A DNA stretch of 64,000 bases from Limnohabitans sp. Rim8 (lineage in GTDB: Bacteria; Pseudomonadota; Gammaproteobacteria; Burkholderiales; Burkholderiaceae_C). The notes under the pieces were generated by a model, which had not been told where the DNA came from, ran no database searches, and saw only the letters and a program-made list of their open reading frames with translations. The DNA lies in contig NZ_CAMBNZ010000004.1 of assembly GCF_945869175.1 (NCBI RefSeq), forward strand, positions 1 through 64,000, given 5' to 3'. Numbering within the stretch: the first letter of the stretch is position 1; each line of letters opens with the position of its first letter. Made by a program: the position numbers and the translations under genes. Below, one piece after another: positions 40,298 to 49,353 of the stretch.

Positions 40298-40495
40298 TTA
40301 CTTCTTCACCGCAGCATCGGCCGCAGCTGGCGCTGAAGCCACCACTTTGGTGCCACCGTTGAGGAAGTTCTTCACCCAGGTGGTGTTGACCGTCAGGGCC
40401 AGGTGCACGCTGAATGACGCAACGGCCACAGCAGCAATGAACACTGGAATCCCAACCGAAGGCTTCACCACACACCACATTTTCGAGTAGATCAT
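40298..40495 (-). CDS. pucA: LH2-type light-harvesting alpha polypeptide
   Basis: 65 aa: MIYSKMWCVVKPSVGIPVFIAAVAVASFSVHLALTVNTTWVKNFLNGG...; gapless alignment to LH2 alpha, Ala-rich C-terminal tail. Confidence 0.93.
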   Translation of the reverse strand: MIYSKMWCVVKPSVGIPVFIAAVAVASFSVHLALTVNTTWVKNFLNGGTKVVASAPAAADAAVKK

Positions 40496-40507
40496 GATGA
40501 TTTTCCT

Positions 40508-40660
40508 TTACTTGAGCCAGGGTGAATAAATATAGGCCAGCAGATGGGCAAATGCGGCAATCATGCCGAAAATCTGCGTGCCCTGGATAAGATTGCGGTG
40601 AATCTCTTCCGATTCGGCCTCGGTCAGTCCCGTTGGCCAGACTTTGTCTGAATTAGACAT
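40508..40660 (-). CDS. pucB: LH2-type light-harvesting beta polypeptide
   Basis: 50 aa: MSNSDKVWPTGLTEAESEEIHRNLIQGTQIFGMIAAFAHLLAYIYSPWLK. Confidence 0.93.
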   Translation of the reverse strand: MSNSDKVWPTGLTEAESEEIHRNLIQGTQIFGMIAAFAHLLAYIYSPWLK

Positions 40661-44032: not shown

Positions 44033-45106
44033 CTACTTGGCCGCGACTTTGGACGCTGTCAAAGCGGGCTTGAGCAACTCAGGAAAGTCCTTGGCCATGG
44101 GGGCACCGTTCAGTGGTTTGTAAGCGCCCTGGTGGCAGGTTGCACAATTGGCTTTGGCAACATCACCCAATGGGCCCTTGCGGTGCGCCGGGAAAACTTC
44201 GGTCAATGGCTCCATATAAGTCAGATTCAAATCACGCGCCATGCGGATGCCGTGCCAAGCAGTGACCCGCTGAGGCGGACTGTTTTCCCAGGTTTGGAAA
44301 GACTGCGTGTTGTGGCAATAAGTGCAATTGACACCCAATGACGTAGACATGTGCACCATCAGTCCATGGGTCCATTCGGCCTGTTTGATGGATTGGCGAT
44401 TTCCAGAAGGAAGGGCCGTGGGACCTGCCAGACGAATATTTTTGCTTTCCAGCAAAAATGGTGTGAATGGGTCATTGGGAAGTGAGGACAGATTGACCAC
44501 CGGTGAGGGCTCGTTCTGCCCAGCCTTGTCGCCCATGAAATTGGAGCCTTGAGGCTGATGATCCGCCTTGAACCATATTTCACTCGGAACTGGCTGTCCT
44601 CTGTGGCAGGTGTAGCAAGTCACGCCCGTTTGCGCCACATGAGGCTGCCACTCGGCATTGATGTGCTGCGTCATCTCCGTCATGCGACGGGCCACCACCT
44701 TGGTGTATTTGCTGTCATCCGCAAAATTGGCGACGTTATGGCAATAAGCACACCCTTCATTGGGGGCAACCCAATTGGTCATGGAAACCATGAGCCGAGT
44801 GAATTGACCAACGCTCAAGTCACCCAAGACCTTTACATTTTTATAAACCTCCGATGCCTTGGGGCCTCCTGCATCCGCAGCAGGGATCACATCTGGAGGC
44901 TGGTTTTTTTCAGTCTTAATTTCAAGCAGCCTTGGGTTGTAAACCTGGGCCATTCCAGTGCCCCTGTAGCCACTTTGTACGGATTCAGGAACAGGTCGCT
45001 CACAACCTGTAAGCAACAAACCCATCAACAAAAAGCCCATCAACTTGAACAAAAAGCCTGTGGTCGGCGAATCAGAGCGGACATGTGTGTTCATAAGGTT
45101 TTTCAT
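44033..45106 (-). CDS. pufC: Reaction-center tetraheme cytochrome c subunit (lipoprotein)
   Basis: CAYCH, CYTCH, CTYCH, CATCH heme motifs; LLLTGC lipobox. Confidence 0.96.
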
Positions 45107-46080
45107 GGCTTGCCTCCAATGCTGAGCGAGGGGTCGGGCAGCGCAGGGTAAATATCAGGATAAGGCGGGACAACGCCATGCTTCATGGCCCACAGGTACC
45201 AGTTGTCCACCACAGTACCGGTCAACAAGATGCCGATACCACCTGTGATGGGGCACAGCACAGCGAACCACCAAGCCCAACGGTGAATCGATTCCATGGT
45301 CGCGTTGAAACCCATGGTCCAGCGCCAGAACAAGGCAGCGCGCTCAGAGGCCGTGCCACGGTCGGTGATTTGCTCGATTTCACGTTCACCGCCATACCGG
45401 GTTACGGCCAAAATGGTGGCACCGTGCATGGCGAACAGCAGGGCTGAGCCGTACAAGAACACGATGGAGAGCGCATGGAAAGGGTTGTAGAACAGGTTGC
45501 CGTAACGGAGCGAAAACGCCGTGGTCCAATCCAGATGAGAGAAGATGCCGTAAGGCACTGCCTCACTCCAAGAACCCATCAGAATGGGCCGGAACAAACC
45601 CAACACCAAAAACAACCAAATGGCCGCAGCAAAAGCCCAAGCGATGTGCAGTCCCATACCCAGCTCAATGGCACGCCGGTAAGTCCGCGCCCACCAGAGC
45701 AAGATAGATGCAGTGAGGAAAAGACCAACAATCAAAAACCAGCCGCCCTGATTGAGGGGAGGCAAACTCAAGCCATAGCTCGGTGGTGGTGGCTCCAGTG
45801 AGAGCCAGAACAACTGGCGAACAAACTGAATCGGATCGTAGTTGACCGAGGCCAACATGTTCATACCAATCAGGGTGAAGGCGATAAGGCCACAAAACAA
45901 TGAGGCCAAACCCAGACCACCCAAATAAATGGGCCCCAACTGGGCGTTGCCGATCTTACCGATCCAATAAACAAGAAATGGACGGCCGCTTCGGGGACTG
46001 TTTCCATGCCCAAGCTTGACCCCCTCGTGAACAGGTCCTACGGCTTGTACCGTTGTGAACAGATTTTGATATTCAGCCAT
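45103..46080 (-). CDS. pufM: Photosynthetic reaction center M subunit
   Basis: [20 protein letters not shown]..; [26 protein letters not shown]. Confidence 0.97.
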
Positions 46081-46132: not shown

Positions 46133-46969
46133 TCAAACGGGCCACTGCGACCAGATGGGCAGGTTCAACCACCAACCCCACCACTCTGGCCAGCCACGCG
46201 TCCAGAACGGTCCACTGAGCACAATGCACAGCGCGCTGAACAAGACAGCCGCCAGCGCCAAGAAAAGACCGACTCTGTGGATACCCAATGTGCCCACCGA
46301 ATAACCGATGAAATCCCGGAAAAAGGTGTCCTCATGCTCTGGGGTTTTGACCACTTGTCCAGGCTGCGGATTGGTAGAAGAAAGCACCAGACCACCGTGC
46401 AGCGATAAGGCGAACACACTGGCAAAGAAGAAACTCACGGCGATCATGTGCGCCGGGTTGTAATGAAAATGCAGGTACTGGTAGCCCACATTGGAGACCC
46501 AGTCCAGGTGGCTGAAGATGCCGTACGGAAAACCGTGACCCCATGCCCCCATGAGCACGGGGCGAATCACCACCAGGGTGAAATAAGCAAAGATGGCCAC
46601 GCCGAAAGCCACGGGCACGTGAAAGCCCATGCCCAGTTTGCGGCAGATCTCGACCTCGCGCATCATCCACGAGCCAAATGCGCCGAGTGCACACACTGTG
46701 ATGAGCTGCCACAGGCCGCCCTCCATCAGGGGCGCAAAGCGCAAGCCATACGACAAATCAGGCGGTGCGATGCTGATCTGCCAAATGTTCCAGGTCGGGC
46801 CTTGTGAGGCACCCCACAAAATGAGCGCTGTGCCCAGGAACGAAAAGAAAAGGGTTGTGACGCCGAAAAAACCGACGTAAAACGGTCCGACCCAAAAGTC
46901 GAACAAATCACCACCCAGCAGGGTACCACCGCGAACACGGTACTTTTTCTCAAAATTTAGCATGGCCAT
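46133..46969 (-). CDS. pufL: Photosynthetic reaction center L subunit
   Basis: [38 protein letters not shown]. Confidence 0.97.
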
Positions 46970-46999
46970 GGTTGGGTCCTCCTGCCTTCAGTGGATGAA

Positions 47000-47037
47000 C
47001 AGGTGCTGCATTGAACGGGGCTCAATGGCAGCACCTG
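47000..47037 (-). promoter_or_regulatory. Large hairpin in pufA-pufL intercistronic region (mRNA stability element)
   Basis: CAGGTGCTGCATTGA / TCAATGGCAGCACCTG, one-base bulge. Confidence 0.75.
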
Positions 47038-47043
47038 GACGGC

Positions 47044-47062
47044 AAGTCCTGGATCAGGACTT
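47044..47062 (-). promoter_or_regulatory. Second hairpin overlapping the pufA stop codon
   Basis: AAGTCCTG-GAT-CAGGACTT. Confidence 0.6.
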
Positions 47063-47263
47063 GGGGGCGGCCAGCGATGCCACCGAAGCGGGCAGCGGCG
47101 AGTTTTGCGCCGATGCTGCTACAGGCTTTTTCGCGCCGTCGAGCCAGTTGAATTTGTTGGTGCTGAGCAAGATGAGGTGAATCATCGCGGCCAGGCCAAA
47201 CAAGAAAATACCCTGCAGCACCATGGCACGCAAAGGGTCGTAAAGTCGCCAAATTCTCCACAT
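47054..47263 (-). CDS. pufA: LH1 alpha polypeptide
   Basis: [43 protein letters not shown]. Confidence 0.96.
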
Positions 47264-47273
47264 GGTGAATCTC

Positions 47274-47498
47274 CTAAATGATGTGGGACATGAAGGTGTA
47301 CACCGCAGCTTTCACGCCCTGACTCATGCTCTTGGCATCTTCAGCACCAGGCAGCAGATCCCGCCAGTGAACGCCGACCAGCTTGGCCAGAACGACGAGC
47401 ACGAACAGACATCCGAATCCGATAAGGAAAATGGACCAATAGGCTGGGGACTCATCCGCACGCGAATGGTCCTCATGGAGGTGGGTTGTGTTTTGCAT
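47274..47498 (-). CDS. 74-aa single-TM protein between pufB and pufA; divergent LH-beta-like candidate
   Basis: [78 protein letters not shown] upstream of ATG; stop TAG lies in the pufA RBS (TAGGAGA). Confidence 0.8.
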
Positions 47499-47542
47499 GA
47501 CAGTGACTCCGTCAATCTATGGTTAAAAAAACAGGCTCTGAA

Positions 47543-47686
47543 TCAGAACCAGGGACGCCACGCCCAGACCAGGATGTGGGCCAGAACAGCTACAGCTGTA
47601 AAGCCCACGGTACCTTGCATCCAGTAATGGTGGAACTCCTGGGCTTCCTCATCGGTGAGTCCGGAAATTGATGTCTTGGTGGACAT
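47543..47686 (-). CDS. pufB: LH1 beta polypeptide (47 aa, not in ORF track)
   Basis: [64 protein letters not shown]. Confidence 0.95.
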
Positions 47687-47826: not shown

Positions 47827-49353
47827 TCATGCCGCTACCCCCAGGCCCAGTTCGCGGCTGGCCGCGTTAACATGGGCTTCGGTCACTTCGTTCTGGCCTT
47901 GTGACTGGGACAGCTGCTCGGCTTGGTCTCGCAAGCGCTTGGCCGCAGAAATTTGCACCAGCACGGGCTGGCTTTGCACGACATCGCGCAGGCGCTGCTG
48001 GGCCTCGTCTTGCCAGCTGGCATTCGGCGCCACCACGCCGCGCGCATGTGTTGCTGGGGCCTTGTCCATCTCGGTGCCTAAAGGCAGGATGTGGAACAGC
48101 GCATCAAACAGCGCGTTGCACACCTCTTGAATCACATAGCTGGCACCGCTGTAACCCATGAAAGGCGTGCCCGTATGGCGGCGGATGATGGCGCCGGGGA
48201 AAGAAGCCGGAATGAAGGCTGCACGCATCGGGCTTCCGCCTGAAATTTCGCTCAGGTACATGCGCTCGTTGTAGCTGCCAAACATGATGAGTGGGGTCTG
48301 GGTCTTGACCAGTTCGCGCACAGCAGCGTTGTCGGTCTTGTTGCCTGCGGTGCGCGACACACTGAACCGGCAGGGCAAGCCCATTTCATGTTCGAGGAAG
48401 TTTTTCAGGCCCCTCGAATAGGTCTCGCCAGCCACCACAGCAAAACTGGCGGTCGCGAAAAAGTCTTGTGTGACCGAGCGCCACAGGTCCCACATGGGCT
48501 TCAAGGTGGTGTGCTTTTCACGTTCGATGAAAGGCTCGGGGTCCAAGTGCAGTAACTCGCCCAATTTGCGCAAAAAGTTGGTCGTGCTGTGCAAACCAAT
48601 GGGCGCTTGCAAATAAGGGCGCTCCAGCGCCTCGCACAGCATGCGGCCAAACTCGCGGTACATGCAAATGTTCACATCGGCCTCGACCAAGCGCGAGACA
48701 TCGGCCAAGTGACTTCCCAGCGGGAAAACCATATTCACATCGGCACCGATGCCTTGCACCAGTCGGCGGATTTCTGCCAAGTCGCTGGCACTGTTGAAGG
48801 TGCCGTAGCAAGGGCCGATGATGTTGACGCGGGGCTTTTCGCCCACAGGACGGTCTTCAAAGGGTTTGCGCGCAGGCACTTTGCGCAGACCATATTCGCT
48901 CCACAGCCAGTACATGGCGCGGTTGGCGCATTGCCATTGGTCTTCGTCGATGGTGCGCGGCAAAAAGCGGGCGATGTTGGTGCCTTCTGGCGTGACGCCG
49001 CCGCCGATCATCTCGGCAATGGAACCTGTGACCACCACCGCGGGCAGTTCGGGGTCGAGTGTGGCGTGTGCGCGCTTCATGGCGCCTTCTGTGCCTTCGC
49101 GGCCCAGTTGCTCTTCAGCCAAACCTGTCACCACAATCGGCAACTCGTGAGGCGGCAATGCATCGGTGTAATGCAGCACCGAAGTCACAGGCAAGTTTTC
49201 GCAGCCCACCGGGCCGTCGATGACCACTTGCAAACCCTTGATGGCGGTGAACACATACACCGCACCCCAATAACCACCTGCGCGGTCGTGGTCCAGGATC
49301 AGGGGCGACTTGGGCTTGGCCACACTGCTGGGTGGAGGATTGATTTGGTTCAT
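47827..49353 (-). CDS. bchZ: Chlorophyllide a reductase subunit Z
   Basis: [61 protein letters not shown]. Confidence 0.96.

Follow-up and report, generated by a model that had tools for sequence, protein, structure and literature searches.

The window, a 64,000-nucleotide stretch of a Limnohabitans sp. Rim8 contig, contains the gene order bchZ-pufB-X-pufA-pufL-pufM-pufC (Table 1), in which X is our label for the ORF between pufB and pufA. The initial annotation had placed pufB, X and pufA in this order on the minus strand, and the coordinates confirm it, with pufL and pufM coming next. X was also correctly described as an ORF with its own ribosome-binding site: it has an ATG start, a TAG stop and the sequence ACGGAG 8 nt 5' of the ATG, and its stop falls within the pufA Shine-Dalgarno sequence (TTTAGGAGATTCACC-ATG). 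The adjacent pufB is recognized by the standard models (PF00556 match 4e-12; NF040862 score above cut-off). The tail of the pufA product carries SPLP, a cytochrome-contact motif of the type described from Rpi. globiformis (PMC9640540). The interval between bchZ and pufB in the window holds no ORF in the PufQ position.

Besides pufA and pufB, only a puc-like pair at about 40.3-40.7 kb matches PF00556 in the source genome, which makes four genes in all, none of them X. The puc-like genes lie inside the photosynthesis cluster, an arrangement that a review has noted for Limnohabitans (PMC12654162). The ORF antisense to X and pufB is probably a shadow of codon use in X.

Table 1. Features of the puf region in the window; the last row gives ORFs at other loci
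Feature	Position	Strand	Remarks
bchZ	47827..49353	-	neighbour upstream of pufB
pufB	47543..47686	-	short LH1 beta, 47 aa; ligand His present, C-terminal tail absent
X / ORF74 homologue	47274..47498	-	74 aa; by sequence, LH1 beta paralogue without pigment ligand
pufA	47054..47263	-	LH1 alpha, 69 aa; Shine-Dalgarno overlaps X stop
Strong intercistronic pufA/pufL hairpin	46970..47060	-	-39.4 kcal/mol, z -4.3
pufL	46133..46969	-	reaction-centre L
pufM	45103..46080	-	reaction-centre M
pufC	44033..45106	-	reaction-centre tetrahaem cytochrome (homology and position)
puc-like LH2 alpha and beta genes	40298-40660	-	
121-aa ORF	47262-47627	+	antisense to X and pufB
PufQ-position ORFs	L125:1084; L142:1460-1684; L116-L118, upstream of pufB; L144:1561	+ (L125)	

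X is related to the LH1 beta chain

Compared by hhalign with 7 C-terminally extended PufB sequences, 34 X sequences gave a probability of 99.6% and an E-value of 1e-23 over 74 columns without a gap, the E-values being those of single comparisons between small alignments. The probability was 96.7% against short PufB, 94.9% against ORFs in the PufQ position of other lineages, 29% against alphaproteobacterial PufQ and 2% against PufA. When the X profile was searched against the PDB, only LH beta chains matched, the best being 8z81_B (2e-17), followed by 9m8m_B and 7xxf_B (Rpi. globiformis). Judged by sequence, X is a paralogue of the C-terminally extended LH1 beta over its full length. The gap-free alignment supports the original proposal that X derives from a duplicated pufB. 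The pairwise alignment offered with that proposal holds in its shared YW/GF residues and in the replacement of His by Lys, but its 3-residue shift does not, because the gap-free register fits better.

Family models see less of this relationship. The NCBIfam pufB model matches 36 of 49 X members at E up to 1 (best 1.9e-10), the Rivibacter X reaches 39.2 bits on NF040862, below the cut-off of 61, and the window X matches neither NF040862 nor PF00556. A Pfam scan of X at E up to 10 gave no useful match, PF05398 included. X is thus a beta paralogue by hhalign and PDB homology, yet not a beta by model, and annotation models leave most X copies unnamed. The extended LH1 beta (Rpi. globiformis 7XXF chain B; 8z81 chain B) shares with X a transmembrane (TM) helix, a WR-W-LPG turn and a periplasmic tail; X differs from it in lacking the bacteriochlorophyll (BChl)-ligand His and the N-terminal EFH motif, and in adjoining a normal pufB.

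The alternative that X is a displaced PufQ did not hold up. PufQ (PF05398) and X are alike in size, in having a single TM segment and in belonging to the puf operon, but PufQ is encoded upstream of pufB, and the profile similarity between the two is not significant. In the loci that we read, X sits between pufB and pufA, not between bchZ and pufB, and we reject X as PufQ on this position and the low profile probability. The profile comparisons suggested earlier, with PufQ, PufX and protein W/U/Y, returned no match to X. With E-values up to 10 allowed, the X profile matched no PufX, protein W, protein U/Y or gamma chain in the PDB, and we therefore also reject X as one of these known accessory subunits. 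Sequence and profile searches of the PDB found no structure containing X, and among PDB sequences we found no betaproteobacterial RC-LH1.

The pigment ligand is lost from all copies of X

Lys39 of the window X aligns with the BChl-ligand His of beta, which we scored as the residue 7 positions before the Arg of WR. As first noted for the window, the ligand is lost: His occupies this position in 0/65 and 0/72 distinct copies in two slightly overlapping sets (about 137 in all). The residues found instead are Q 36, K 18, T 5, N 3, L 1, S 1 and G 1 in the set of 65, and Q 60, S 4, T 4, E 2, G 1 and A 1 in the set of 72. Four copies with PGSE/PGAD variants were left unscored by the script and have Gln by eye. 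Gln can ligate chlorophyll in plant LHCII, which makes a pigment-free state less secure for the Gln members of X; members with Lys, Thr, Ser, Gly or Leu argue against a conserved ligand.

X is under purifying selection and is tied to the puf operon

Among 23 relatives in the clade of the window, dN/dS is 0.087 for X, compared with 0.009 for pufB and 0.057 for pufA. Constraint is tightest in the periplasmic tail, with pN/pS falling from 0.331 in the N-terminus to 0.084 in the TM segment and 0.028 in the tail (residues 43-74). The motifs WR..LPGAE and GV..AVYT are invariant over many genera. In a search of 100 related genomes, the copies found in many members of the same genus were 65-97% identical, and those found elsewhere 28-41%. 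X is tied exclusively to puf: all fetched loci with E 1e-6 or better lie inside a puf operon. Selection and synteny together reject a chance ORF. No X relatives were found in the viral contigs searched.

We surveyed 399 Burkholderiales genomes, 48 of which have reaction-centre (RC) genes. X lies between pufB and pufA in 38 of the 48, and it is conserved with the operon across many genera. Five others (G088, G225, G239, G312 and G342) lack X, and the one pufB that they carry encodes a C-terminal tail; three (family f23) have a short pufB with an X-like ORF upstream of it, and in two the locus is broken by contig ends. A further genome, G333, carries X at a contig end and has no RC genes; it stands outside the 48. 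Among named genomes, 196 relatives were confirmed and 80 kept, with hosts including Rubrivivax gelatinosus DSM 1709 and IM 151, R. benzoatilyticus JA2, Piscinibacter, Rivibacter, Ideonella and Methylibium. The order pufB-X-pufA-pufL was found directly in 77 of the 80 kept loci, and in L160 on inspection.

The genus of the window contains two very different puf operons (L030, L032, L034 and L036-L041 versus L001), with LH1 alpha about 40% and PufL about 80% identical; X occurs in both. This divergence in sequence suggests exchange of the photosynthesis cluster. One metagenome-assembled genome (MAG), G056, has two different puf operons on contigs 1 and 368 (L011 and L031), the second X being 51% identical to the window X, and contains either two clusters or contamination.

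The C-terminal tail is exchanged between PufB and X

Where X is present, PufB ends at WRPW(F/L); where X is absent, PufB has the His and a tail, WRPWLPG...GVKAA. Family f23 is the exception, with a short PufB and a separate X-like partner upstream. Family f30 holds both states, a short pufB with X and a tailed pufB without it. The X tail of G111 ends in ANSVIPLMFM, which resembles the end of tailed PufB, and the Rivibacter X retains the beta-type WRPW. Because the tail is on PufB where X is missing and on X where it is present, pigment binding and tail appear split between two copies; one ancestral beta was apparently duplicated and the two roles divided. On the PufL tree, which is mostly unresolved, the X state needs 5 changes, of which the supported branches force only 1.

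X probably corresponds to a co-transcribed ORF in Roseateles

In Roseateles depolymerans, ORF74 (RD2015_RS05155), also of 74 codons, lies between pufB (RS05150) and pufA (RS05160) on the major 1-kb pufB-ORF74-pufA transcript (PMC10037100). These three loci are the most affected by loss of the sigma factor SP70 and also the most changed under carbon starvation; ORF74 was reported as a co-transcribed ORF only, without homology or function (PMC10037100). By length and locus-tag order, ORF74 and X are probably the same gene. The ORF itself is already known, with no function given, so that the novelty first claimed for X applies to its beta origin but not to the gene as a whole. In the openly accessible literature that we searched, we found no mention of the pufB origin, the universal ligand loss, the tail exchange or the near-universality of X among phototrophic Burkholderiales.

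The pufA-pufL hairpin of the window would yield a short pufB-X-pufA mRNA as in Roseateles, and is probably the 3' stabilizer of that mRNA. Roseateles has no puc genes (PMC10037100), which argues that X does not serve solely for contact with LH2.

A possible role in the RC-LH1 ring

The AlphaFold model of X (pLDDT 65, pTM 0.34) has a TM helix at 18-47, confident at about 21-40, an LPGAE loop at 49-53 and a low-confidence second helix at about 56-73; a structure search with this low-confidence model found no match. Conservation of the TM segment is one-sided (p 0.0002, columns taken as independent), with its centre close to positions -4/-1 relative to the ligand, and the tail helix is amphipathic in the window (p 0.012). 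In LH beta, the side near -4/-1 of the ligand faces pigment and alpha.

Our tentative preference is that X is a 'dark beta', a duplicated LH1 beta that has no His-bound BChl and is built into the RC-LH1 ring. X would insert as beta does, with its N-terminus inside and its tail outside, pack against alpha through the helix face typical of beta, and occupy one or a few beta places. Its amphipathic tail would lie on the periplasmic membrane face, filling the role that the beta tail has in species with a single extended pufB, and the pigment gap at X could act as a quinone passage or a ring-size stop. The quinone-gap role is suggested by PufX and protein W, which resemble X in this proposed role only, as single-TM, pigment-free ring parts; they have no sequence similarity to X that we could find and are not pufB-derived, and PufX is encoded after pufM. 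In favour of a dark beta are the beta homology, the universal His loss, the tail reciprocity, the conserved 43-74 tail and TM face, and the co-transcription and co-induction of ORF74. Against it count the high-level pufBA transcript, which would supply X well in excess of one or two copies for each ring, and the weak AlphaFold model with no structure match. The role of 'accessory or ring-gap subunit' first suggested for X is a plausible candidate.

The abundance of the transcript bears on two of the alternatives. X could instead be an assembly or pigment-delivery factor that binds nascent alpha or beta and aids LH1 building but is absent from the finished complex, a role in LH1 assembly also having been proposed for PufQ. 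We consider this unlikely: X matches PufQ in size class and single-TM layout, the window has neither a pufQ upstream of pufB nor a PF05398 match, and family f23 and some gammaproteobacteria have related ORFs in the PufQ position, ahead of pufB, but the resemblance to alphaproteobacterial PufQ is low, the tail exchange with PufB indicates a ring part, and transcription at the LH1 level exceeds the need for a catalyst. The position of X inside the pufB-X-pufA segment, ahead of the stabilizing hairpin, suggests LH1-like amounts and would suit a gamma-like filler present in LH1 in many copies. Rpi. globiformis, in which beta likewise has the tail, offers a parallel in its gamma-like chains, which lie between betas (PMC9640540). 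Gamma chains are likewise a third small, pigment-free membrane chain of LH1. They are, however, far shorter than X, unrelated in sequence to it in the PDB and encoded elsewhere, the one in Rpi. globiformis is inverted, and the conserved TM face of X is the pigment/alpha face of beta; a gamma-like X is accordingly somewhat less likely again.

The ligand position and the selection data weigh on the remaining two. X might still bind BChl, with Gln, Asn or water as the ligand in place of His, and so tune LH1 absorption. This would fit the Gln in 36/65 and 60/72 distinct copies and the small residues retained at -4 and -1, positions on either side of the pigment in beta, but the copies with Lys (as in the window), Thr, Ser, Gly, Leu, Ala or Glu make it improbable. 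Least credible by far is a non-functional X, either a duplicate in decay or a spacer for the translational coupling of pufB and pufA. The overlap of its stop with the pufA ribosome site would suit such a reading, as would the in-frame deletion in L028 (G050 contig 114) that fuses a tail-less X to pufA in a product of 129 aa, but X is under purifying selection at the amino-acid level and keeps its two motifs across many genera. The L028 fusion comes from a MAG and may be a natural deletion or an assembly fault.

Quinone exchange through the antenna ring of RC-LH1 has varied solutions, among them PufX, W, U/Y and gamma. A dark beta would predict a further RC-LH1 part in Betaproteobacteria, one that originates from an antenna chain. 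More tentatively still, betaproteobacterial RC-LH1 may have a near-universal, unrecognized subunit, a ligand-less beta at fixed ring positions that makes a quinone-exchange gap, with the ancestral tail and pigment roles split. Our literature search found no proteomics, mutant or structure for X; Rubrivivax gelatinosus, a culturable phototroph with X, allows a direct test.

Some gammaproteobacteria, family f23 and Methylobacterium have ORFs of 74-82 aa in the PufQ position. These ORFs also show a weak relationship to extended LH1 beta (hhalign 97%), and the one in L125 retains His at the ligand position. They may form a second class of accessory genes that derive from beta.
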